Assembly (NCBI GenBank): GCA_021650775.1
Contig: JAHSRM010000019.1
Span: 1 to 41,455 of the forward strand
DNA length: 41,455 nt
DNA from: Candidatus Benthortus lauensis
GTDB taxonomy: Archaea > Thermoproteota > Nitrososphaeria_A > Caldarchaeales > Wolframiiraptoraceae
Direction of reading: 5' to 3'
Positions 5,021 to 19,921 of this stretch are shown in pieces. Under the pieces are notes generated by a model that was not told where the DNA came from, did no database searches, and was given only the letters and a program-made list of their open reading frames with translations. Position numbers and translations under genes: made by a program. Position 1 is the first letter of the stretch; each line of letters begins with the position of its first letter.

Positions 5021-6541
5021 TTGAAGGAGGCCCCTGTTCTCCCAGACCTGTCGGCAATCCAGCTCAAGGCAGCCGCATACCTAGTCAGGGCTGGGAAGGT
5101 CTCGGGCAAGGTCCTGATACACCGCCGCCTCCTCGAGGAGATCGAGTCCCAGGCCTCTGGAGGTGATGTGGTGGCGGTCGAGGGGCTGAACGAGCTTAGG
5201 AGCGCATGCGGGGAGAGGGGGCTGGAGCTGGAGTATGTGGGCGAGGCCGGGGAGGGGAAGGCCTCGAGGCTCATGATACTCGAGGACGCCTCCAGGAGGG
5301 GTGCCAAGATACTTACCTGCGACCCCGTGACAGCCAGGATGGCCGAGTCCATGGGAATCGAGCTAATCTATGAGCTTCCTCCACCCCCATTCACCATAAA
5401 GGAGCTCTTCGGAGACGATGTGATGAGTGTCCACCTGAAGGAGGGGCTTCCACCGAGGGTTAAGAGGGGTGTCCCAGGTAGGTGGAGGTTCGAGGACGTC
5501 AGGGAGGAGCCGCTTAGGAGGGAGGAGATAGAGCTTGTGATAGCCCACCTCATGAGGGAGGCATACGAGAGCTTCGGCTCAGACGCCTTCCTAGAGATAG
5601 ATGAACCGGGTGTGAGGATATTCCAGTTAAGGCAGTATAGGGTGGTGGTCACCAGGCCCCCCTTCTCCGACGGATTCGAGCTTACGGTCGTGAGGCCCAT
5701 AGTTAAGCGGAGCCTAAGGGACTACTATCTCCCAGGAGAGGTCCTGGATAGGCTTGAGACCCAGGCCGAGGGAATCCTGATAGCGGGGCCGCCTGGGATG
5801 GGTAAATCGACCTTCGCCCAAGCCTTGGCTGAGCACTACAAGGAGCTGAACAAGGTGGTCAAGACGATTGAGAGCCCGAGGGACCTCTCGGTCTCAGCCG
5901 ACATAACCCAATACTCCAAGTCGGCTGCCAAGGGAAGCGAGCTACACGACGTCCTACTCCTAAGCCGCCCAGACTACACCATCTTCGACGAGATACGTGG
6001 ACCCGAGGACTTCGACCTATTCATAGACCTGAGGCTCGCAGGCATAGGGATGGTCGGGGTAATCCATGCAACGACCCCGATAGACGCTATACAGAGGATA
6101 GCCAACAAGGTGGATGTAGGAGTCCTCCCATCGATAATAGACACGGTGATCTTCATGGATAAGGGCGAGGTCTCGGAGATCTATGTCCTCGAGATGACGG
6201 TCAAGGTTCCTGCGGGGCTGAGGAGGGCGGACCTGGCCAGGCCCACAGTCATAGTCAGGGACTTCATGTCAGGTGAGCCAAGATACGAGCTATACGTCTT
6301 CGGGGAGAGAACCTTCGTCGTCCCAGTCAAGAAGGAGGAGGCAGAGGCAAGGGTCCCAGAGAGGAAGATAGCCCAGCTCCTCCAGAAACACATACCCGAC
6401 TTCAGCATAGAGGCGGAGGGAAACCTCGTCAGAATCTTCATACCAGAACGCTACTACCGAACCTACATCAAGAAAGTCCAGAACAAGCTCCTAAAACTCG
6501 CCAGAAGATACAGCCTAAACCTCCAAGCCTTCCCAAGATAA
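5021..6541 (+). CDS. PIN-domain ATPase (PilT-like P-loop ATPase with N-terminal PIN and C-terminal KH-like region)
   Basis: 506 aa, TTG start; N-terminal PVLPDLSAI...ILTCDPVTARMAESMGIEL; Walker A ILIAGPPGMGKSTFAQALAEH; YTIFDEIRGPEDFDLFIDLRLAGIGMVGVIHAT. Confidence 0.88.
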   Translation: MKEAPVLPDLSAIQLKAAAYLVRAGKVSGKVLIHRRLLEEIESQASGGDVVAVEGLNELRSACGERGLELEYVGEAGEGKASRLMILEDASRRGAKILTCDPVTARMAESMGIELIYELPPPPFTIKELFGDDVMSVHLKEGLPPRVKRGVPGRWRFEDVREEPLRREEIELVIAHLMREAYESFGSDAFLEIDEPGVRIFQLRQYRVVVTRPPFSDGFELTVVRPIVKRSLRDYYLPGEVLDRLETQAEGILIAGPPGMGKSTFAQALAEHYKELNKVVKTIESPRDLSVSADITQYSKSAAKGSELHDVLLLSRPDYTIFDEIRGPEDFDLFIDLRLAGIGMVGVIHATTPIDAIQRIANKVDVGVLPSIIDTVIFMDKGEVSEIYVLEMTVKVPAGLRRADLARPTVIVRDFMSGEPRYELYVFGERTFVVPVKKEEAEARVPERKIAQLLQKHIPDFSIEAEGNLVRIFIPERYYRTYIKKVQNKLLKLARRYSLNLQAFPR

Positions 6542-6632: not shown

Positions 6633-6662
6633 ATCCTTATTTTATGTGGGTGTCTTGGAGGG

Positions 6663-7211
6663 TTGATGGATTTTGGGGGGTGGCTGGGTAGGAGGACCCT
6701 GATTGTGGGTGAGGCTGGGTCTGGTAAGACGAGGGTTCTGGCATCCTTCCTCGACTACCTGTTGGAGAGGGTTCCCTCCAGGGAGATAACGGTCATCGAC
6801 ATGGCTCCCAGGCGTGTCAAGGGGGTGGGAGGCCTCCTGGAAGACTACACGCCAAGCGTCTGGAGGGTGAGGTATCTGCGTCCATGGAAGATTACTCCCC
6901 CACGGCTCACGGGCAGAACATCCGAGGAAGTTAAGAGGTATGCGTGGGAGAACAGGGAGGCCCTCGAACCCCTCCTAGAAGAGTATCTATCCAAGCCGAC
7001 CCCAACCCTACTAATCAACGACATAACAATATACCTCCACGCAGGAAGCACCGAAAGAATCAAGCAGATGATTACACACGCCAGCACCTTCGCAGCCACC
7101 GCCTACAAGGGTATTAGGCTACAGGATGACAAAGGCTCCAGCATATCCCGCAGGGAAAGGGAGGAGCTGGAGAGGCTTGTAGAGCTTATGGACCAGGTGG
7201 TCGAGGTCTAA
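6663..7211 (+). CDS. Small P-loop NTPase of unknown function
   Basis: 182 aa; Walker A LIVGEAGSGKTRVLASFL; PTLLINDITIYLHAG possible Walker B. Confidence 0.8.
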   Translation: MMDFGGWLGRRTLIVGEAGSGKTRVLASFLDYLLERVPSREITVIDMAPRRVKGVGGLLEDYTPSVWRVRYLRPWKITPPRLTGRTSEEVKRYAWENREALEPLLEEYLSKPTPTLLINDITIYLHAGSTERIKQMITHASTFAATAYKGIRLQDDKGSSISRREREELERLVELMDQVVEV

Positions 7212-7219
7212 CATCCGCC

Positions 7220-8572
7220 TTATTTCAGGGTCTTTAGGAGCTGCTCTATCTTTGTGATTACCTCCATGGGGTTTCTTCCGAGGACCACGGCCATAGGCTC
7301 CTTCCCCCAGTCTCCCGTATGGTATATCAGGTCAGGAACCTTTCCCTCGTTCCTCTTTATGGCTGCCTCGGTTCCCCAAGGTATGGTGGCCCCCTCCCTT
7401 GACTTCACCTCAGGCGGCTCCTCCCTCCTATCATAGCTACTCACACTCCATCCAAGCCTCCTAGCGGCCTCCACCACATCCTCCCCATACCGTATGTTCA
7501 TGGCGGACCTCATATCGGGGTCAAACCTCATGGCTGTTAGGACTGCTTTGGCTACGTGGCGTGAGGCTCCGAACCATGGGCATGAGGAGGCCCTGGCCCT
7601 ATCATCCAGCCTAACTATCCTCCCTGGAACACCCGCAACATGCTCCAGCCCCGAGGCACCCTCTATCGCATATACCAGGTTGGACTGGGACTCTGGTATG
7701 AGGTTGACTAATCCCTCCAGCCCCTCAACCCTCCTCAAGGCATCTCTCATCACCTCCAAGACCCTAAGCTTCCTAGACTCCTCGACAACCCTGCCCGTGG
7801 GATTAACAGGTCCATGCCCTTTCCCTAGGGGGAGGCCATACCTTATGGCGTCGTAGACGAACTGCTTGGCGACCTCCACAGCCTCGGGTATCCCCTTACC
7901 CTTGGCCAGCTCGGCCGCTATGGCAGATGCGAAGGTGCATCCAGTCCCGTGGGTGTTCCTCGAATCGATTCTCGGGGAGACATACTCCCTGAACTCGCCG
8001 TCCATGTAGAGGACATCGACCACCCTCTCGCCCTCAAGGTGACCTCCCTTAACCACCACAGCCCTGGGGCCGAGCGAGGCTATGGCCTCCGCAGCCCTCC
8101 TCTGGCCCTCCAAGTCCCTGACCCTAACACCTGACAAAGCCTCTGCCTCCCGTGCATTAGGGGTAACCACCGTGGCCATGGGTAGGAGCCTCTCCATCAG
8201 GGTCTTCCTGGCATCCTCCCTAAGGAGGGGTGCACCGCTCTTAGCCACCATAACCGGGTCCACCACCAAGGGCGCCTCAACACCCTCAAGCTCCTCGGCC
8301 ACGGCCTCGATGATCTCCGACGTGTGGAGCATCCCGGTCTTAACCGCATCCACCCCAATATCCCCTACAACCACCCGAATCTGCTCCCTAACCAACTCCA
8401 CGGGAACATCATGAACCATCGTAACCCCCACAGTATTCTGGGCAGTAATCGCTGTAACAGCACTCATCCCATGAACCCCAAGGGCCGCAAAAGCCTTCAA
8501 GTCAGCCTGAATCCCCGCACCACCCCCAGAATCCGAGCCAGCCACAGTCAAAGCCCTAGCAACCATCAACAA
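7220..8572 (-). CDS. thiDN: Bifunctional hydroxymethylpyrimidine (phosphate) kinase / ThiN-type thiamine-phosphate synthase
   Basis: 450 aa; ALTVAGSDSGGGAGIQADLKAFAALGVHG, VVDPVMVAKSGAPLL, NTHGTGCTFASAIAAELAKG; C-terminal ThiN-like NLVYAIEGASGLEHVAGVPGRIVRL...IPWGTEAAI. Start may be the Met at 8566. Confidence 0.95.
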   Translation of the reverse strand: MLMVARALTVAGSDSGGGAGIQADLKAFAALGVHGMSAVTAITAQNTVGVTMVHDVPVELVREQIRVVVGDIGVDAVKTGMLHTSEIIEAVAEELEGVEAPLVVDPVMVAKSGAPLLREDARKTLMERLLPMATVVTPNAREAEALSGVRVRDLEGQRRAAEAIASLGPRAVVVKGGHLEGERVVDVLYMDGEFREYVSPRIDSRNTHGTGCTFASAIAAELAKGKGIPEAVEVAKQFVYDAIRYGLPLGKGHGPVNPTGRVVEESRKLRVLEVMRDALRRVEGLEGLVNLIPESQSNLVYAIEGASGLEHVAGVPGRIVRLDDRARASSCPWFGASRHVAKAVLTAMRFDPDMRSAMNIRYGEDVVEAARRLGWSVSSYDRREEPPEVKSREGATIPWGTEAAIKRNEGKVPDLIYHTGDWGKEPMAVVLGRNPMEVITKIEQLLKTLK

Positions 8573-8627
8573 AACCCCAAAGAAAACACCCTAAAAACCC
8601 CTACCCACGGCAACCACCAAAAATAAG

Positions 8628-8737
8628 TTTAAATAGAAGCGAACATCCCTTAAATACGAATCCCCGGAAAGGGGCTTGAACCAACCCACCAGAAAAAGAA
8701 TGCCCAGAAAGGGCCTAAAACCTACAAAAACAATACC
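8628..8737 (+). promoter_or_regulatory. CRISPR leader with TATA-like elements (8628-8635, 8650-8656) and two repeat-like hairpins
   Basis: A/T-rich start tttaaata, then GAATCCCCGGAAAGGGGCTTGAAC at 8658 and GAATGCCCAGAAAGGGCCTAAAAC at 8698, directly before the first repeat. Orientation fits the archaeal rule that repeats end in TTGAAAG with the leader upstream. Confidence 0.7.
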
Positions 8738-9826
8738 GAATCTCAAAGAGAGAGTTGAAAGCCAAGCTGAGTAACGTGGAGTGAACCCTATTTCCCGAAA
8801 CTCTATTGAATCTCAAAGAGAGAGTTGAAAGACTTGGATTATTCTCACGCACATGAACTTGAATACGCCTAAGAGAATCTCAAAGAGAGAGTTGAAAGTC
8901 GCAGGAATATTGATAACTCCTTTAATCGCCGAAACCGTTGAATGAATCTCAAAGAGAGAGTTGAAAGATGCTTATTATTTCCGCGAGCCACTTGTTTTCT
9001 GGTGGGAGAATCTCAAAGAGAGAGTTGAAAGGAAACTTTATCCGCTACTTGAACCTCGTTTACGGGGAGCCATGAATCTCAAAGAGAGAGTTGAAAGTCC
9101 ATAGTTTTTCGTAGAGGCCTACTCCTGCTGCTGCTACTGAATCTCAAAGAGAGAGTTGAAAGTCACCAACCAGCTTAACATAATTATACAGCGTCTTAGG
9201 CTTGAGAATCTCAAAGAGAGAGTTGAAAGATGTCTACCTTTATTGGGAGCTTCCACGTCCCGTGCTGAATCTCAAAGAGAGAGTTGAAAGTTATCCTCGA
9301 TTAAAAGATTGGCTCCGAGAATCCGTACGCCTGAATCTCAAAGAGAGAGTTGAAAGTCATTCAAGGCGGAGCGATAGATTTTCACATATAGGTCTTGAAT
9401 CTCAAAGAGAGAGTTGAAAGTTTACTGAAATATTCCACTCTAACAAAAGTGGAAATTGCCAGACACTTACGAATCTCAAAGAGAGAGTTGAAAGACGAAT
9501 CCGGCGTATGGGGCCTTGGCCTCGGCCACTATCTTGAATCTCAAAGAGAGAGTTGAAAGAGTAAACAGTGTCAACCCGAATCCTCGTCACCGTCAAGGTC
9601 CGAATCTCAAAGAGAGAGTTGAAAGCAGTATATCCACGAGTTCCCTCCATGATGATATGAATGACTGAATCTCAAAGAGAGAGTTGAAAGTTATCTCTAC
9701 ATCGACGCTGTATGTCTTGGTTGGGCTGAGAGCGAATCTCAAAGAGAGAGTTGAAAGCAAACCAAAAAAATTATGGGAAGTTATGGAGGCCACCTCCTGA
9801 ATCTCAAAGAGAGAGAGAGTTGAAAG
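8738..9826 (+). CRISPR. CRISPR array: 17 repeats of GAATCTCAAAGAGAGAGTTGAAAG, 16 spacers of 37-50 bp
   Basis: Repeats start at 8738, 8808, 8875, 8944, 9008, 9074, 9139, 9206, 9267, 9333, 9397, 9471, 9536, 9602, 9667, 9734 (all identical 24-mers) and 9799 (28-bp variant). Confidence 0.99.
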
Positions 9827-9863
9827 ATATCCTTATTAGGGATGAGATATATGTTTCTTAGAT

Positions 9864-10739
9864 ATGGAGATATATCCATTGGTTATAAAGGCTGTAACAC
9901 CTATACATGTGGGTGCTGGCGAGGCTGTAGCGGAAGTTGACCAGCCCATCATAAGGGATTCTCTAGGAATACCCTTTATACAGGCTTCAGGTTTAAAAGG
10001 CGCTATTAAGGCTGTGTTACCAGATAATTTAAAGAAATTGCTGGGATCTGATCCTGAGAACCCGGTTAAGGAGCCATCTAAAGTTAAAATATATGATGCA
10101 TATCCAATACTAGTCCCAGCTAGGAGCTTGAGAGGTTTATACTGCTATGTCTCTTCACCCCACCTCTTAAAATGGTTTCTAAATCTAAGGAGCTTCTTAT
10201 CAATCAGTAATAAGGATGGCTATGATTTTAGTGATGTCTTAAATCAAGTGGAGGAAGGCTCTGCATTGTTAATACATAAGGATATGTTTGACTTAGGAAG
10301 TATAAGCGGTAATTTTGAGGGTAAAGTAATGTTTAATGAGGAGTTCTTTACAATTAAGGAGGGTAACATCGACAAATTAAGGAACTTTCTTACTGATGTG
10401 ATTGGAATGAGCGATGAGGTGGATAGGGTGGCTATCATAAGTGACGATAAGATTGTGGGGATAGTTAATAAGAGTCTTATTAGGATTACCAGGGTGAGGC
10501 TGGAAAAAGAAGCGAAGAGAGTTGAATCTGGCGGCCTATGGACAGAGGAATATATTCCTAAAGATACATACTTCCTCTCATATGTAGGATGCTATTTAGA
10601 CGATCATAATAATGTGAAGGATATGCTTAACGAGTTGAATGGCAAGCTTCTTTTCGTGGGTGGTTTGGAGACTATAGGTAGGGGGCTAGTCCATCTTAAG
10701 ATTTTTGGTTGGGGTAGGGGTGGTAGGCATGGAGGTTAA
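9864..10739 (+). CDS. cmr4: Type III-B RAMP protein Cmr4 (backbone subunit)
   Basis: TPIHVGAGEAVAEVDQPIIRDSLGIPFIQASGLKGAIKA, IYDAYPILVPARSLRGLYCYVSSP; Asp26 lies where the catalytic Asp of Cmr4 is expected. Confidence 0.9.
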   Translation: MEIYPLVIKAVTPIHVGAGEAVAEVDQPIIRDSLGIPFIQASGLKGAIKAVLPDNLKKLLGSDPENPVKEPSKVKIYDAYPILVPARSLRGLYCYVSSPHLLKWFLNLRSFLSISNKDGYDFSDVLNQVEEGSALLIHKDMFDLGSISGNFEGKVMFNEEFFTIKEGNIDKLRNFLTDVIGMSDEVDRVAIISDDKIVGIVNKSLIRITRVRLEKEAKRVESGGLWTEEYIPKDTYFLSYVGCYLDDHNNVKDMLNELNGKLLFVGGLETIGRGLVHLKIFGWGRGGRHGG

Positions 10740-11235
10740 GGAGAAGGATATCCTTTCTGCTATTGAAAATTACGAGAGTATTATTAGCCTAATCAATGTA
10801 GGTGGGTCTGGAGGGACTTCAGATAATAGAAGGAATGCTTTTCTAAGGTCGTTGAGGACTAGGGCTAGGAGCGGGCCTGGCGATATCATGACGAATGGCT
10901 TATCTACACAGCTCCTATTCCTCCTATCCAAGTCTGGGAAGTCAGAGAGTAATGTATATGTTAAGCTTGTAGAAGCCTTAAAGGTTGGAAGTATTGAGGA
11001 GAAGATAATTGGTGATTCGCTTGGATATGCAGCCTATCTATACCTAGTTCTAAAGAGGTGTGTGGAGCTAGGCTTTATAGGTGAGACTGACCTTGGAAAG
11101 CCTATTTCGGCTATAAAGAAGCTTGTGGATAAAGAGCATATCGTGACACCTATTATTATTGGGTATTTAAATGAGATTAAGAAGCTGGCATCAGCGACTA
11201 TTGATGAGAAGGGAAACTATATCCTAAAATCATGA
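10729..11235 (+). CDS. cmr5: Small subunit Cmr5
   Basis: Small helical protein, ATG overlapping the cmr4 stop; position in the operon; RRNAFLRSLRTRARSGPGDIMTNGLSTQLLFLLSKS. ORF-track start at 10705 would be TTG. Confidence 0.75.
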   Translation: MEVKEKDILSAIENYESIISLINVGGSGGTSDNRRNAFLRSLRTRARSGPGDIMTNGLSTQLLFLLSKSGKSESNVYVKLVEALKVGSIEEKIIGDSLGYAAYLYLVLKRCVELGFIGETDLGKPISAIKKLVDKEHIVTPIIIGYLNEIKKLASATIDEKGNYILKS

Positions 11236-11250
11236 TCTAGGGGTGATTAG

Positions 11251-12573
11251 ATGGATTGGACCGATATCATAGATAAAATTGGTGGTGACATAATTGCAGA
11301 GATAGACTTTAGAGTTGACATGATGGTTTTAGGTGGATATCATGGGTATATGGCTAACCCAACAATAGATTATGTTGAGAGGCTTACAGGAAAGCAGATA
11401 AAGGCTTTATGGAGATGGTGGACCAGGACAATAGTCTCAAGGGTTTATGGAGGACGAATTAACTATTCTTTAATAGAGAAAGATAAATTATCCAAACTTG
11501 GATTGGGTGGTGGTGAAAACCAGGACCCCTCATCATACTCTATAGTAATTGAAGCTAAAGATGATTATTCCATTAAGAATGTGTTGCATAGCTCAGATCT
11601 TAGAAGGATTCCTGTGTCCCACTTGCCTAATACCATTAGGTTTATGAATAAGGTCAGACTCAAGATGGGCAACAAAATCAGGGCCGATAAAACTAGTACT
11701 AGATATGCGATAACTATTCAGGGTATAAATAGGAACGAAATGAGAGAATTGATCTTATCAGGCTTAGGGTCCGTATTAGATGAAATGAAGTTTAAATTGT
11801 ATTTATTAAGGAATGGAGGTGGAGGAGATGATGATTTCTCATTATCATCCCTATTCCTATCCCTAATCTTGGGTAGTGTGGGTTGGGCTTCTAATAGGGG
11901 ATTTGGCTCATTGACACCCATAAAAATAGATGTTAAATCTTACAATGTTTCTGAAGAGATAAAAAATATTTGTAGTTATCTCACTAATCCACCTAGAAAT
12001 GATGAATTTAAAAATAAGATATATGATCTTATAGAAAAGAATATTGAATACGTTTCTCGTATTCTAAATAAGCCTGTAGCTGCTATCCGGAATATTCCAA
12101 AGGTACCTACGATAGGTAGGAGAAATGAGAACTTTTTTAGGTTGGATATTTACAATGGATTTAGCGATGCGTGGTCTACTCTGGAGAAAATAGGTGAATG
12201 TTGTTTAAAAGCTACATGGAAGAAGTTGAATGGGAAAGGTATTAGGTATCCTGGTGGAAGATGGCATACATGGATACTTGGGTTACCTAGAAAAGCTAGT
12301 ATAGGAGGAAATGTGACTGGATACATAGGTGTAGATAGAAGACAATCTAGCATATTAATGAAGATGCTCAGATATAATAACAAAATATCTGTCTTAGTAG
12401 TGGGTATTCTCTCTGAAGATTGGAATATAGGTGAGATAAAACACTGTAGCGTTAGCAGGAGACGGGGCAGACGATGCATCCCCATCTCTAATATTAGTGG
12501 TGGAAGTAATTTGACGCAAGTATTTAACGAGGCTTGGAAAAAGATTGGTAAATGCTTTAGGGTTGGGAGTTGA
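11251..12573 (+). CDS. cmr1: RAMP protein Cmr1
   Basis: 440 aa; GGYHGYMANPTIDYVERLTGKQIKALWRWWTRTIVSRVYGG, SVGWASNRGFGSLTPI (glycine-rich loop). Confidence 0.82.
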   Translation: MDWTDIIDKIGGDIIAEIDFRVDMMVLGGYHGYMANPTIDYVERLTGKQIKALWRWWTRTIVSRVYGGRINYSLIEKDKLSKLGLGGGENQDPSSYSIVIEAKDDYSIKNVLHSSDLRRIPVSHLPNTIRFMNKVRLKMGNKIRADKTSTRYAITIQGINRNEMRELILSGLGSVLDEMKFKLYLLRNGGGGDDDFSLSSLFLSLILGSVGWASNRGFGSLTPIKIDVKSYNVSEEIKNICSYLTNPPRNDEFKNKIYDLIEKNIEYVSRILNKPVAAIRNIPKVPTIGRRNENFFRLDIYNGFSDAWSTLEKIGECCLKATWKKLNGKGIRYPGGRWHTWILGLPRKASIGGNVTGYIGVDRRQSSILMKMLRYNNKISVLVVGILSEDWNIGEIKHCSVSRRRGRRCIPISNISGGSNLTQVFNEAWKKIGKCFRVGS

Positions 12574-12576
12574 GAT

Positions 12577-13482
12577 ATGAGTCAGGATATGGAGAATCTA
12601 AAGAGATTGATTAAGCGTTTCATTAGTAGGTGGGCAAGAGATGATAGTATAAATGTTTCATCGTTTATGGTGTCTTTACCGAGTCTATTGAAGGATGAAG
12701 CCGGAAATGATGTGATTGAAGAAATATTTAAGTATATGACTTATCATGATAAAGCTGATGAGTTTAGGTCTTATCTTAAAAGAATGTTTATTGACATGTT
12801 TATGAATAGGTCTAGCATGTGGGTTAAGCCTATAGATCTATATAATATATCTTCCTCTCTCCTAGGTAATTGGAAGATTTATGATATTGAAATTGAGTCT
12901 CTAGAGAAGGTTACTGTCCATTCTGGGTGGGGTGTGTTTAATGTTGTTTTTGAGATTGGTCTAGCCTTTGATACTATACGTAATCTTCCATATATGCCAT
13001 CGTCGACTATTAAGGGCGCTATTAGAAGCGCATATAGAAGGTTGAAGGGGAAGGACGAATTTAGAGACCTTCCTGATGAGAATATTATGTTTGGATCTAC
13101 TGGTAGAATTGGGTCTTTAGCATTTACGGATGCATATCCAATAGACGGTAAGCAGATACTCTATCCCGATATAATTACTCCGCATTATAGACCTGAGACA
13201 GAGTCAGAGTTGGATGTTTCTCCATCGCCTCTTCCACACCTTGTTATAGGTAAGGGTGTTAGATTTAAATTCCTCCTATTCATAAAGCCGGAATATGAGA
13301 AGTATCTCGATGAGATAGATGACATTGAGAATGTTGACATTGAATCTCTAAAGCCTCTTACTAAGGTTTTGCTATATGGTTTTGCAAGGGGTGTGGGTGG
13401 AAGGACATCCTATGGATATTCACGCTTCATCATAAAATCCATAAAAGCTCTAAGAGGTGGTGGAGATGGGGGTTCCGGATGA
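12577..13482 (+). CDS. cmr6: RAMP protein Cmr6
   Basis: 301 aa; VTVHSGWGVFNVVFEIGLAFDTIRNLPYMPSSTIKGAIRSAYRRL, MFGSTGRIGSLAFTDAYPI, PDIITPHY. Confidence 0.87.
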   Translation: MSQDMENLKRLIKRFISRWARDDSINVSSFMVSLPSLLKDEAGNDVIEEIFKYMTYHDKADEFRSYLKRMFIDMFMNRSSMWVKPIDLYNISSSLLGNWKIYDIEIESLEKVTVHSGWGVFNVVFEIGLAFDTIRNLPYMPSSTIKGAIRSAYRRLKGKDEFRDLPDENIMFGSTGRIGSLAFTDAYPIDGKQILYPDIITPHYRPETESELDVSPSPLPHLVIGKGVRFKFLLFIKPEYEKYLDEIDDIENVDIESLKPLTKVLLYGFARGVGGRTSYGYSRFIIKSIKALRGGGDGGSG

Positions 13483-16400
13483 GTATTACCTTGCTAAGCT
13501 TTGGGCTCTATTCCATGACCCACCCGATAAGACGATATCTATAAAGGATCATAGGGATAGAGCTAAGGAGTACTTCAAGCCATTGCTTAAATGTATTGGG
13601 ATGTCGGGGGATACAGTATTTAATGGTGGGATAAAGAGGCTAGTTGATGATGCTGATAGGTTCGCATCCTCAATCGATAGATTTATAACCCATATAGTAT
13701 TAGCTGGAGGTGACTATAGTAAGTACCCCGTTGAGTTGGGTATGCTTAAGAACATATATAATCCCAAGTATGTAGTTCGGTATGACTCCATACCCTCCCT
13801 TCTATTTGTAAAAAGGCGGGTGCATGATGCTATTAATAAGCTATGTAAATCTCTGACCTACCTAGACGAGCTTCTAGGTAAGCATGATCCAAGATACATA
13901 TATCATCTAACCTATGCGCTATATGAACCCCTCATTATAAATGAGGGTGTGCCATCACTTCCAGCCGATACAAGGGTTCCAACTCATACTGTCATGGATC
14001 ATAACTCAGCGGTTGCACAGTCTATAAATATGTTATTTGGTAGAAAGTATGGGAAGGGTAAATATTCAGGCTATCTAGTCTACATATCCATACCAGGAGT
14101 ACATAGGTACATTAGTAAGTCGAGGAAGATGGGTGACCTATGGATCTCAAGCTATCTACTATCAGCACTTGCATGGTATCTAGTCGAAGAATTAGTTATG
14201 GATCTTGGCCCCGACATACTGATACTTCCTACATCTAGGTTCAACCCATTCTACATACATACACTTTACTCCATAATCACTAAGGGTCATCCAGATGATG
14301 AGATAAGGAACATCAAGGAGATATTTAGAGAGTGTTTCAACATAAATATTGAAGTTAAGAGGGAGGATGATAGGATAGAGAGGGAGGAAATATTAATTTA
14401 TGAGCCAGGTGAACCGCCTCTACAAGCCATAATGCCCGCCAATATATCACTGATAATACCATATATTGAGGAGTATCTTGAGAGGAGGTTTGGAAAGAGA
14501 AATCCTAATAGTGATGATATCAAGAAATATTTTGAGGATAGGCTAGAGAGGTTTTGGACCGATTTATGGGACTCAGTTAGAAGTGAGGCCAAGAAAAGGG
14601 ATGATATGCTTTACATATATAAAGTGATATTGGAACGTGGGGACGATCTTCAGAAGAATTATTTTAATAGGTTTAGAGAGAGACCTCCCTTTAACCTTAG
14701 AATAGTCGTTCTTAATATCGAGGAGATGTATGAGAAGTATAGGGTGGAAGGTTTTAAGGAGTATGTTGGTGAAAAGGAGTACGATGAGAAGTATTATGAT
14801 AACCTGTTTTACGACTATCTCTTCAATAGGCTTGGGCTCCTCATGAATAAGCTGAAGCATGTTAGATTGGATGGCTATGCGAATATTGATGTTGAGAAAT
14901 ATACTGAGGAAGCTTATGAAAGGGGCTTGTCATTGACAATATCTATTGACAATAAGGAGGTGGAGGAGAGATATAAACACTGCAGTTTATGTGCGGCTCT
15001 ACCTTCAGTAGTCTGGCTCCCCAATGACTATAATAGAGATAAGATATGGAGGTTAGCAGAGGAATTCAGTATTAGGATTAACAATGAGGATGAGATGAAC
15101 AGATTTATCAGTAATCTGAATGCGTTGATCAAGCCTGGGGAGTCACTCTGCCCATACTGTCTGATCAAGCGTACACTGTCTAGATATGTAAATCCATTAA
15201 TCAAGCTTATATTCGGGATTGAGCTTAAGAAGGGATATAAGATTCCCTCACATACCGAGGTAACCACTATAGAATTTAAACTCTCACTCCTCAATTCCTT
15301 AGAAAATAGTGACAAAATGGATGTTTTCTTAGATAATTTAAAGTCAGATGTATTAGATAAGCAGGTTGAAATCTTTGGGAGGAATATATATCTGGAGACT
15401 ATCTTCAAGCTAAACAGTATATCTATTGATGTATTGAAAAATGTATTTCCGGCGCTGTCAGAAAAATATGATAAGATCTATAAGAGCTTCTATAGAAAGG
15501 TTAACTTAGATCCATTGAAAACGATTATTGAAGGTGATGGAGAGGCCGTCTTCCATGAGAGGTATATAGTTGAGAATGAGGGTAGAAGGGTTGGTATTTG
15601 GAGGGCTATTTTGGATGTTCTGAAGGATGTAGGCGTATCTGCCGAGGGAATAAAACCTATATATTTATATTATGCATGTATAAAGGTCGATGGCGATAAT
15701 GTTGGTAAGCTTCTCTCAGGTAAGGTGGATGTATTTTCGAATATTGGGATCATGGATTATGTTGAGGGATTGGCTGAAGGTGAGATAGCCGATATCATAA
15801 GGAGTATATTAAGAGGTCAGATTAAACATCATTTGGGTGATGTATTAAATTATATGATATCTAATAATCGGATAATAGTTACACCCTCATTCCATAGCTC
15901 AATCTCTAAGTCTATAATGTTGTCGGCTGCTAACGATATGAGGATTGTTAGGGATAACTATGGATTTGTTATATATGCTGGTGGTGATGATCTACTGGCT
16001 ATAACTCCCGTAAGTAGATCTTTACTAATATCCTCATTAGTTAGGAGTAGGTTTTCTGGTTATGATTCTAGGCATGTAGGTTTCCTTGAAATGGGTAATA
16101 ACTATTTCCAGCCTATGTTTGTTACTGGAGGAAGGTCTATCGCCCTTATCTACAGCCACTACCTAACACCACTAAAACCTATTATTGAGGGGGCTGAGAC
16201 AAGTCTGGAGAATTATTCTAAGAGGATGAAGCTGATGCTAAATCAGGATTGCTATAGGGGTTCTGACTCACCTGAAGAGTTACATCCTGAACTGTCTAAG
16301 GACTCGACAACGGTAATCTATAGGGCTAGGTCGGGCCAGCAGCTTCTATCCATGATACCCAATAAACTCTTTGTAGAGGACGAGAATGGCTCTAGGCTTA

Positions 16401-16765
16401 GAATCATATTGGATAAGGTCGCAGACTTTATAAGGGATGCTTATGATAGGATGGATTCTGAAAGACCTATTATATCAGCCTCTCATCTAAATAGGTTTGT
16501 GAGTGATGTCGGCAGGCTAGGTATATACCTAGATAAGTGTAAGCATGAATATCTTAGATCTATAATAACTAATGAATATTTAGGTCAGAATGGTAGAGGG
16601 GAGTTCGTTAGACATTTTGGCATCGACAGAGGTAGACTGTATCTACTTAGATTCTATAAATATGTTGTTAAGGATGCCTATGGACGAACTATATTAGATG
16701 GATACCCACTACTGGAGATCTTTAAAGTTCTTAAGATATTCAAGTCGTCTATGAGGAGTGGGTAA
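13457..16765 (+). CDS. cmr2: Cas10/Cmr2 large subunit with intact GGDD palm motif
   Basis: 1102 aa; N-terminal LAKLWALFHDPPDKT; zinc-ribbon-like CSLC...CPYC; IKVDGDNVGKLLSGK; YGFVIYAGGDDLLAITP. Start GTG 13457 or ATG 13466, overlapping cmr6. Confidence 0.93.
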   Translation: MVEMGVPDEYYLAKLWALFHDPPDKTISIKDHRDRAKEYFKPLLKCIGMSGDTVFNGGIKRLVDDADRFASSIDRFITHIVLAGGDYSKYPVELGMLKNIYNPKYVVRYDSIPSLLFVKRRVHDAINKLCKSLTYLDELLGKHDPRYIYHLTYALYEPLIINEGVPSLPADTRVPTHTVMDHNSAVAQSINMLFGRKYGKGKYSGYLVYISIPGVHRYISKSRKMGDLWISSYLLSALAWYLVEELVMDLGPDILILPTSRFNPFYIHTLYSIITKGHPDDEIRNIKEIFRECFNINIEVKREDDRIEREEILIYEPGEPPLQAIMPANISLIIPYIEEYLERRFGKRNPNSDDIKKYFEDRLERFWTDLWDSVRSEAKKRDDMLYIYKVILERGDDLQKNYFNRFRERPPFNLRIVVLNIEEMYEKYRVEGFKEYVGEKEYDEKYYDNLFYDYLFNRLGLLMNKLKHVRLDGYANIDVEKYTEEAYERGLSLTISIDNKEVEERYKHCSLCAALPSVVWLPNDYNRDKIWRLAEEFSIRINNEDEMNRFISNLNALIKPGESLCPYCLIKRTLSRYVNPLIKLIFGIELKKGYKIPSHTEVTTIEFKLSLLNSLENSDKMDVFLDNLKSDVLDKQVEIFGRNIYLETIFKLNSISIDVLKNVFPALSEKYDKIYKSFYRKVNLDPLKTIIEGDGEAVFHERYIVENEGRRVGIWRAILDVLKDVGVSAEGIKPIYLYYACIKVDGDNVGKLLSGKVDVFSNIGIMDYVEGLAEGEIADIIRSILRGQIKHHLGDVLNYMISNNRIIVTPSFHSSISKSIMLSAANDMRIVRDNYGFVIYAGGDDLLAITPVSRSLLISSLVRSRFSGYDSRHVGFLEMGNNYFQPMFVTGGRSIALIYSHYLTPLKPIIEGAETSLENYSKRMKLMLNQDCYRGSDSPEELHPELSKDSTTVIYRARSGQQLLSMIPNKLFVEDENGSRLRIILDKVADFIRDAYDRMDSERPIISASHLNRFVSDVGRLGIYLDKCKHEYLRSIITNEYLGQNGRGEFVRHFGIDRGRLYLLRFYKYVVKDAYGRTILDGYPLLEIFKVLKIFKSSMRSG

Positions 16766-16768
16766 AAG

Positions 16769-17854
16769 ATGCCTGTGATATCTTTTCTTATAGATCCTGT
16801 AGAGTCTCAAGTCTTCAGGAAACCAGGTGAGTTTAATCCCGATGCTAGATTCCTATTTGGTGTAAGCACGTCATATCCACTACCGCTACCCACTACCGTT
16901 ATAGGTTTGCTTGGTTGGGTTGTAGGCGATAAGCCATCCTCTACTGGCTGGGTTGAGGAGTTTAGAGATGTGTTTAGCGCCTTTAAGAACTTCACTTTTA
17001 GAGGATCTTATCTTTTATGTAGATATGGGAATAAATATGTACCATATGTCTGGTATTCAGATCATGAATACTATGAGGGCTTTGCACCTCTTATAAGGAG
17101 AGATAGAGACGATGTTACACTACTTATGAAGCTTAGCGGGCTCTGTAAAGAGGAAGCTCTTAGCGTTGTGGATGTAAGGAGTATTAAGTCTGTGGGTGTG
17201 CATTTGGAGAGGGGGTATACTGGTATGGATAAGGTGGGTATCGAGGGATACTTATATTTCCAGGAGTATATAGACTATAGATCCCTATTTGGAGAGATGG
17301 GTGCGGATGCTGGCTATATAGCTATGGATATGAAGTTTGAGGATGGGGATGTAAAGAGGATTGAAGAAGGGTTTGGTGATGGAATCGTTAGATATATGGG
17401 TGGTGAGACTAGAAGTGTAGTAGTAAAATATGGTGATAAGACTTTGGATCAGATATTAGCTGGTTCCGAGGAGTTTGAAGGAGAGTTTTCCAAGGGTAAT
17501 GACGTTATATTGTATCTAGCGTCGCCAGCAATAATTAGACCATCAGATGACATAATAAAAAGTCTGGATGATGCTATGAAAGTGGTTTCTGATATGTTTA
17601 AAGATTTGGACTATGTTGATAGTGTTGATATAAAGAGTAGCCATACTAATGTGTATATTGATATCATGGGTGTGGGCTATCATAAATATAGGGGTAGGAA
17701 GCCTGTCTATAGAGTCATAGGTCCAGGATCTAAGGTTCATGTTAAATTGGCTAGGGATGTGGGTCTTGAAGAGATCTACTGGAAGGGTGTAGGCTATGCA
17801 AGTGAGCTAGGGTTTGGTACACTAATACCTATAAAAATTAGGGAGAATGAGTAA
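16769..17854 (+). CDS. cmr3: RAMP protein Cmr3
   Basis: 361 aa; FLIDPVESQVFRKPGEFNPDARFLFGVSTSYPLPLPTTVIGLLGW; C-terminal GYASELGFGTLIPI. Confidence 0.86.
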   Translation: MPVISFLIDPVESQVFRKPGEFNPDARFLFGVSTSYPLPLPTTVIGLLGWVVGDKPSSTGWVEEFRDVFSAFKNFTFRGSYLLCRYGNKYVPYVWYSDHEYYEGFAPLIRRDRDDVTLLMKLSGLCKEEALSVVDVRSIKSVGVHLERGYTGMDKVGIEGYLYFQEYIDYRSLFGEMGADAGYIAMDMKFEDGDVKRIEEGFGDGIVRYMGGETRSVVVKYGDKTLDQILAGSEEFEGEFSKGNDVILYLASPAIIRPSDDIIKSLDDAMKVVSDMFKDLDYVDSVDIKSSHTNVYIDIMGVGYHKYRGRKPVYRVIGPGSKVHVKLARDVGLEEIYWKGVGYASELGFGTLIPIKIRENE

Positions 17855-17945: not shown

Positions 17946-17969
17946 GAATCTCAAAGAGGGAATTGAAAG
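17946..17969 (+). repeat. Solitary CRISPR-repeat copy (GAATCTCAAAGAGGGAATTGAAAG, 22/24 identical to array repeat)
   Basis: Direct comparison with the array consensus; differs at positions 14 and 17 only; same orientation as the array. Confidence 0.95.
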
Positions 17970-19270
17970 GTTTTCTGTAGTATGTCTTCTAGGTTTGGTC
18001 TTCCTGTTTCTTTTAGTTCGTATCTTACTTTTGTGTAGGGTTTGTTTATTTTGATTAGTTTTGCTAGGTTTATTGGTGTTCCTAGGATTATTGTGTCGCA
18101 TTCTGCGTTATTTATTGTTTCCTCTAGTTCTCTTATCTGTCTTTTTCCGTATCCCATGGCTGGGAGTACGGGTCCTATGTGCTTGTATTTTTGGTAGGTT
18201 TCCTTGATTGAGCCGACTGCGTAGGGTCTTGGGTCTATTATCTCTTTTGCTCCGTGTTCTTTTGCGGCTATGAATCCTAGGGAGAAGCTCATTCCTCCGT
18301 GGGTTACTGTTGGCCCGTCCTCGACTACTAGGACTCTTTTGCCCCTGATTAGCTCCGGGTTTGTTACGTGGATTCTTGAGGTTGCCCTGATTATTAGGGC
18401 TTTGCTGTTGAGTCTGCGGATGTTCTCCTCTATCTTCCTTACGTTGCTGGGTTCGGCGTCCTCTATCTTTGTGATTACTACTGCGTCGGCCATCCTGACG
18501 TTTACCTCGCCTGGGAATGCATCTGCCTCCTGGCCTGGTCTGAGTGCGTCTGCCACTGTTATCATGAGGGTTGGCTTGTAGAAGGGCATGTCGTTGTTCC
18601 CGCCGTCCCATATTATTACGTCTGCGTCCTTGGATGCTGCCTCGAGGACCTTGGCGTAGTCTATGCCTGCGTAGACCTTGTTCCCCATCTCTAGGTGGGG
18701 CTCGTATTCCTCCCTCTCCTCTATCGTGCACTCGTATCTGTCTAGGTCTTCCAGGGACTTGAACTCCTGGACCACGTGTTTGAGGGAGCCATAGGGCATG
18801 GGATGTCTTACCACGTTGAACCTTACGCCGTGTTGCCTGAGTATCTGGGCGACCCTCCTGGCCACCATGCTCTTCCCTGCGCCTGTCCTGACGGCGGTTA
18901 CGGCGATTACGGGTATGGGTGGTTTGAGCATGGTTGAGTTAGGTCCGAGTAGCATGAAGTCTGCTCCTGCGGCTAGGACGGCTGAGGCCTTGTGCATGAC
19001 CTCCTCGTGGGTTAGGTCGCTGTAGGCTAGGACGACTAGGTCCACCCCCTTCTCCCTTATGAGCTCGGGCAGCATGTCCTCCGGGTAGATGGGTATCCCC
19101 TCCGGGTATCTTGGGCCCGCTAGCTCGGGTGGGTAGACCCTGCCCTCTATTCCGGGTATCTGGGCGGCCGTGAAGGCCACCACCTCGTATTCTGGGCTGT
19201 CCCTGAAGTAGACGTTGAAGTTGTGGAAGTCCCTTCCAGCCGCACCCATTATGATTACCTTCCTGGGCAT
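17951..19270 (-). CDS. Cyclic 2,3-diphosphoglycerate synthetase-like P-loop protein
   Basis: 439 aa; MPRKVIIMGAAGRDFHNFNVYFRDSPEYEVVAFTAAQIPGI, Walker A-like AVRTGAGKSMVARRVAQIL, DVIIWDGGNNDMPFYKP. Stop codon lies within the solitary CRISPR repeat. Confidence 0.88.
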   Translation of the reverse strand: MPRKVIIMGAAGRDFHNFNVYFRDSPEYEVVAFTAAQIPGIEGRVYPPELAGPRYPEGIPIYPEDMLPELIREKGVDLVVLAYSDLTHEEVMHKASAVLAAGADFMLLGPNSTMLKPPIPVIAVTAVRTGAGKSMVARRVAQILRQHGVRFNVVRHPMPYGSLKHVVQEFKSLEDLDRYECTIEEREEYEPHLEMGNKVYAGIDYAKVLEAASKDADVIIWDGGNNDMPFYKPTLMITVADALRPGQEADAFPGEVNVRMADAVVITKIEDAEPSNVRKIEENIRRLNSKALIIRATSRIHVTNPELIRGKRVLVVEDGPTVTHGGMSFSLGFIAAKEHGAKEIIDPRPYAVGSIKETYQKYKHIGPVLPAMGYGKRQIRELEETINNAECDTIILGTPINLAKLIKINKPYTKVRYELKETGRPNLEDILQKTFQFPL

Positions 19271-19336: not shown

Positions 19337-19921
19337 ATGATGGAGGTAGGCGTGGCTAAAAGGGTTGCCTTCCTAGCCCTCTTCACCGCCCTGGGAGTGA
19401 TGATAGCGCCATTCTTCTGGTTCCAGTTCCTGGCCACCAAGGCTTTCCCGGGCCAGCACCTGGTCAATGGGCTTGCGGGCGTGATTATTGGGCCGTGGTG
19501 GGCGGGGCTTGCGGCGGTCTTCATAGGAGTTATAAGGAATATGCTGGGCATAGGGACCGTCTACGCCTTCCCCGGGGGGATTCCTGGGGCTATAGTGGTG
19601 GGGCTGGCATACAAGCTTACCAGAAGGTCTAGGAACAGGCTCATCCGATACTCGGCCGCCCTCCTCGAGCCTGTAGGGACCGTGATTATAGGCGGGACGC
19701 TCTCGCTCTTCCTGGTCGCACCCTTGATGGGGCATACGAGGCTAACCGACCCCCTGGCCGAGATGGGCCTAGCCTTCCTCCCCATATTCTGGGCTGGGTG
19801 GGCTGCCAGCTCTGTTCCCGGGGCGGTGATAAGCTATGTGGTGCTCCTGGCCCTCGATAGGATGGGCGTCATGCCGCATATAGAGGTGGTTGAGAGGGTT
19901 CAGCGGTCGGCCCAGACATAG
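19337..19921 (+). CDS. thiW: ThiW-like ECF transporter S component (thiamine precursor uptake)
   Basis: 194 aa membrane protein; FFWFQFLATKAFPGQHLVNGLAGVIIGPWWAGLAAVFIGVIRNMLGIGTVYAFPGGIPGAIVVGLAYKL. Confidence 0.87.
   Translation: MMEVGVAKRVAFLALFTALGVMIAPFFWFQFLATKAFPGQHLVNGLAGVIIGPWWAGLAAVFIGVIRNMLGIGTVYAFPGGIPGAIVVGLAYKLTRRSRNRLIRYSAALLEPVGTVIIGGTLSLFLVAPLMGHTRLTDPLAEMGLAFLPIFWAGWAASSVPGAVISYVVLLALDRMGVMPHIEVVERVQRSAQT

Follow-up and report, generated by a model that had tools for sequence, protein, structure and literature searches.

Genes and repeats at the locus

The window (the whole stretch of 41,455 nucleotides that was analysed) carries a CRISPR array and a cmr operon set among host genes, one of which, a cDPGS-like gene, takes its last codons from a solitary CRISPR repeat. 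The name cDPGS was given by the first-pass annotation of this DNA; Pfam returned only a sub-threshold match to a CobW/HypB P-loop. The features discussed here are listed below, with stop codons marked by asterisks.

5021-6541, plus strand: gene for a T2SSE-type ATPase, conserved in position and bordering the rearranged block on the left
6646-6666, plus strand: displaced native tail of cDPGS, VGVLEG*, its TGA overlapping the ATG of the AAA gene (TGATG)
6663-7211, plus strand: AAA_16-like gene (AAA), inverted and on the far side of ThiDN
7220-8572, minus strand: ThiDN (bifunctional HMP kinase / ThiN), flanking the island on the left
8625-8737 (limits approximate), plus strand: CRISPR leader
8738-9826, plus strand: CRISPR array with 16 identical repeats GAATCTCAAAGAGAGAGTTGAAAG, 16 spacers and a 17th, terminal copy
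8738-9757: the 16 ordinary repeats of that array
9799-9826, plus strand: terminal array copy, with a 4-nt GAGA insertion
9864-17854, plus strand: type III-B operon cmr4-cmr5-cmr1-cmr6-cmr2(cas10)-cmr3, GC 37-42%
17946-17969, plus strand: solitary CRISPR repeat GAATCTCAAAGAGGGAATTGAAAG, whose minus-strand reading gives the last five codons and the stop of cDPGS
17951-19270, minus strand: cDPGS-like gene, 439 aa, its native C-terminal tail replaced from codon 435
19337-19921, plus strand: thiW, conserved right flank, adjoining the 5' end of cDPGS

The operon was assigned to type III-B (Cmr) on the recognition of all six genes, cmr1 and cmr3 weakly. Its genes have a GC content of 37-42%, as against 52-61% in the host flanking genes examined, and a GC3 of 0.33-0.42, as against 0.60-0.76 in host genes. 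The closest relatives of Cmr4 among 398 sampled genomes of the phylum were 34-43% identical (33-37% within the class). By composition the operon is foreign to the locus, and the distance of its Cmr4 relatives likewise argues against vertical descent at this site. The island of low GC comprises leader, array and cmr. The first-pass annotation described cmr as bracketed by direct CRISPR repeats; this holds for cmr alone but not for the island as a whole, where no repeat lies between the leader and ThiDN.

Two further arrays were located in the genome (112 contigs), on contigs C15 and C111. Both have the repeat GAATCTCAAAGAGAGAATTGAAAG, and their leaders resemble that of the window's array when compared by eye. 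No convincing match of spacers to the cDPGS/cmr region was found in the sequence searched. The C15 array closes with a degenerate repeat (L069 2232-2255), and a convergent csx1/csm6 gene (L069 739-2220) has its 3' end about 12 nt away. In the window, the terminal repeat with the GAGA insertion ends only 37 nt before cmr4 (9799-9863), and given this gap the array and cmr may share one transcript.

The solitary repeat as coding sequence

The solitary repeat lies 91 nt past the end of cmr3, in the sense of cmr. It matches the 16 repeats of the window's array at 22 of 24 positions, in the same orientation and 8.1 kb past the last array copy (9799-9826), all as the first-pass annotation had it. No match was expected in dinucleotide shuffles, which rules out chance as its origin, and its resemblance to the arrays of the host identifies it as a CRISPR repeat derived from them. 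The window's array is not its closest match, contrary to the earlier description: the C15 and C111 repeats differ from it by a single base (23/24). The handle of the solitary repeat is ATTGAAAG, that of the window's array GTTGAAAG; the former is the 3' end of nearly all the relatives' repeats listed, among which the latter occurs only in the window's array. The solitary repeat thus keeps the older form of the handle, and the G variant of the array is derived. Since the C15 and C111 repeats are also closer, the present array's repeat was rejected as its nearest source. This variant of the repeat occurs once in the genome, with no recognisable spacer-like remnant or second degenerate repeat beside it. 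A conserved element of cmr operons was ruled out as well, as the other cmr loci fetched have no solitary repeat at the operon edge.

The minus-strand codons of the repeat are TTT CAA TTC CCT CTT TGA, which translate as FQFPL*, and the 439-aa reading frame of cDPGS ends inside it, as first proposed. The same proposal had an array repeat read FQLSL* in this frame. The ordinary copies do so, but the nearest, terminal copy reads FQLSLSLRFRRWPP*; swapped whole for the solitary repeat, this facing copy would lengthen the protein and give it that ending.

The gene itself changes in composition towards the island. GC3 in cDPGS falls steeply, from about 0.60-0.75 to 0.25 over the last 120 codons (17954-18310), and the stretch of codons ~320-439 has the lowest GC3 of 676 host-gene windows in the window. 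A mild dip towards the island was also observed in codons 1-60 of ThiDN. The fall in cDPGS may reflect a 3' end brought in with the incoming DNA, or local drift beside the island. A recent low-GC donor among the species of the sister genus, g5, was rejected, as identity to g5 does not rise in this segment.

Ancestral gene order and the displaced tail

In all five species of g5 the order is T2SSE(+), ThiDN(-), AAA(-), cDPGS(-), thiW(+), with AAA directly downstream of cDPGS and neither array nor cmr at the locus (0/5). ThiDN and AAA are also neighbours on one strand in the members of g2, g3 and g4 of the family whose loci were read, although no cDPGS was found in these. A tree of cDPGS residues 1-320 placed the window protein beside g5 with full support. 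In the window, AAA is found on the plus strand, left of ThiDN, and the low-GC island occupies its former place. Taken together, g5 order and the ThiDN-AAA adjacency in g2, g3 and g4 indicate that the window's order is derived, and that the ancestor shared with g5 had ThiDN-AAA-cDPGS. Relocation of AAA requires a translocation or two inversions. No remnant of a CRISPR repeat, within 6 mismatches, was found at the other breakpoints of this move.

The first-pass annotation suggested asking whether homology of cDPGS stops at the edge of the repeat, and alignment bore this out. The g5 proteins end in LEDIFRQYGILKS, LEDVLRRFGLLKS, LEDVLRTAGVLRG, LEDVLRIYGILKS and LEDVLRNMGILKS, with a tail consensus of RxxG[ILV]L[KR][SG]; the window protein ends in LEDILQKTFQFPL, that is, KT followed by FQFPL, and loses this tail exactly at the repeat edge. 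Protein length is the same in g5 and the window. Replacement becomes clear with a change of G to F, in the first codon that falls wholly within the repeat. Among the 24 other cDPGS loci whose end could be read, no FQFPL ending was found; orthologues with such an ending and no CRISPR nearby had been named as the finding that would refute the first-pass interpretation.

The missing tail was located elsewhere on the same contig. The peptide VGVLEG* abuts the start of AAA, as the g5 tail does, and when scored against the g5 tails it ranked first among the 2485 hexamers that are preceded by or run into a stop in the sense of the scan (stop-preceded hexamers), both strands of the window counted; 8 of 5000 shuffles of the stretch reached its score. 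Nothing comparable was found beside AAA in relatives without cDPGS. From the score and the overlap with the AAA start we conclude that the native tail of cDPGS travelled with AAA. Comparison of the two ends (KT and FQFPL* at the repeat, VGVLEG* at 6646-6666) places a rearrangement breakpoint at the CRISPR repeat: cDPGS was broken no more than about 3 nt from the edge of the repeat, a codon-level estimate that assumes no indel in the two variable preceding codons. The C terminus that the solitary repeat provides instead has the same length. Contrary to what had been supposed, the landing was not seamless: the native tail was torn off with AAA and now lies, still attached to it, inverted beyond ThiDN.

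Origin of the arrangement

The locus is a well-preserved rearrangement scar, not a demonstrated insertion-and-excision site. We lean towards an explanation in which the solitary repeat is the orphaned terminal repeat of the neighbouring array, cut off by the insertion of cmr and lying on a rearrangement breakpoint. Relative to the ThiDN-AAA-cDPGS ancestor, cDPGS has been cut after codon 434, and its last five codons have stayed with AAA, which is now inverted beyond ThiDN. The island of leader, array and cmr occupies the gap, its last repeat abutting the cut and giving cDPGS its FQFPL and stop. On the proposed reconstruction, the array formerly ended with the solitary repeat, and insertion of the low-GC cmr operon between the last two repeats later stranded the outer one. 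It would have persisted on account of its position in a convergent 3' region and of the harmless C terminus, of the right length, that it encodes.

An ancestral handle and a closer resemblance to the other arrays are as expected of an old trailer repeat, and the terminal repeat of the C15 array, likewise degenerate, is near the 3' end of a convergent gene. Against the orphaned repeat stand the fall in GC3, which reaches some 350 nt into cDPGS and is not accounted for, the lack of a spacer-like remnant and the lack of CRISPR repeats at the other AAA breakpoints. The two-step order is further weakened in that no genome was found with an array and terminal repeat but no cmr at this site.

In the first-pass annotation, recombination between repeats was thought able to add or excise the module without breaking the host reading frame. 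In its fuller form, a circular cmr module with a repeat of its own entered an array repeat next to cDPGS through homologous recombination, which left a direct repeat on either side, and could depart in the same way. We regard this as unlikely. Cmr does have a foreign composition and is flanked by direct repeats of like orientation, and recombination between CRISPR repeats within loci has been inferred in Sulfolobales (PMC4390879). A crossover within the 13-nt block shared by the two repeats would leave FQFPL* intact, so that excision by this route is possible in principle, though not demonstrated. However, uninterrupted identity between the solitary and array repeats is at most these 13 nt, the facing array copy has the 4-nt insertion, the handle bases differ, and no excised or circular form was seen; the other cmr loci fetched, without a solitary repeat at the operon edge, also argue against it. 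Occupied and empty sites that both carry the repeat were not found. The empty sites of g5, which lack both array and cmr, also lack a repeat, and their native tail and AAA are in place. Neither a fusion of array and cDPGS, for which the first-pass annotation had suggested looking in related genomes without cmr, nor an excised cmr was found.

The fall in GC3 over the last 120 codons of cDPGS, lowest of all host-gene windows, counts in favour of an island that came with its right flank. A donor with cmr, solitary repeat and a low-GC cDPGS 3' end would then have recombined within cDPGS, and the join of repeat and cDPGS would be older than this genome. We judge this distinctly unlikely: the displaced tail and AAA share the high GC of the host, which places the tearing in this lineage, and a tree of cDPGS codons 321-432, though poorly resolved, placed the segment with no clearly different closest relatives. 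A functional repeat is more doubtful still. Cas6 would cut the 3' end of the cmr transcript at the repeat, trimming the mRNA and releasing a crRNA-like RNA (handle AUUGAAAG plus cDPGS antisense) that could regulate cDPGS. The canonical handle in the sense of cmr, 91 nt past cmr3 and followed by cDPGS antisense sequence, would suit such a role, and the genome has cas1 and a cas6-like gene elsewhere, the latter a sub-threshold match. No second repeat is present to end a crRNA, however, no Rfam match was obtained, and the element is missing from the other cmr loci fetched; no promoter-like site was seen either, in a bacterial scan that is uninformative for archaea. An assembly artefact, with the contig joined at a CRISPR repeat, seems very improbable, even in a draft of 112 contigs with CRISPR repeats common to several of them. 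The solitary variant is single in the genome, the low GC continues past it inside the open cDPGS frame, and the native tail was found independently, detached with AAA elsewhere on the contig.

CRISPR-Cas functional modules are reportedly exchangeable, as described by Garrett and colleagues in 2011 and Almendros and colleagues in 2014. As in those cases, the locus acquired a whole type III effector operon, compositionally foreign, next to an array. It differs in that the module stops at one repeat, which is joined in frame to a metabolic gene at a documented breakpoint, the exchange itself being unobserved. DeBoy and colleagues are said to have associated large inversions with CRISPR loci in Thermotogales in 2006. 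There, too, a rearrangement breakpoint coincides with CRISPR sequence, whereas the present rearrangement is small and local, moved one gene and has no inverted repeat pair at its breakpoints. There are published accounts of cas-module exchange, of CRISPR-associated rearrangements and of lone repeat units (PMC4390879, PMC1896005, PMC8616872, PMC10651486). Solitary repeat units and Racr RNA anti-CRISPRs (PMC8616872, PMC10651486) are also lone repeats resembling host arrays, but the present one is chromosomal, at a cmr operon with host genes on both sides, and no viral context or promoter was recognised for it (the promoter scan being bacterial only). Like CreTA and the crRNA-like regulatory RNAs of cas loci (PMC10097628), it is a repeat close to cas genes from which a guide-like RNA could arise; unlike them, it has no recognised toxin gene or second repeat, and the other cmr loci fetched do not share it. 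In the part of the literature covered, we found no description of a CRISPR repeat that encodes the end of a metabolic protein while the native end is kept elsewhere.

The arrival and departure of cas effector modules have mostly been deduced from where they are present or absent. At this locus one contig holds the two halves of the torn gene, so the breakpoint can be fixed to about one codon from a CRISPR repeat that now serves as protein-coding sequence in a metabolic gene, at a site where excision is directly testable. More speculatively, and with rather little confidence, CRISPR repeats with a built-in stop in one frame might be tolerated joints for moving cas effector operons beside host genes, both marking the joint and giving the host protein its new end; lone repeats in convergent 3' regions of this family would then be scars of repeated gain and loss.

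Apparently true solitary repeats also occur in two further genera of the family, at L199 position 1501 and L208 position 1501; the 3 kb fetched held no other repeat within 6 mismatches. The one in L199 lies in a convergent gap beside a gene that by eye resembles TATA-binding protein. Two further loci, L210 (position 1137) and L215 (position 1501), belong to different genera and agree at 98% over a shared stretch of 1072 bases; the identity ends shortly after a gene and is followed in each by a solitary repeat, in opposite orientations.
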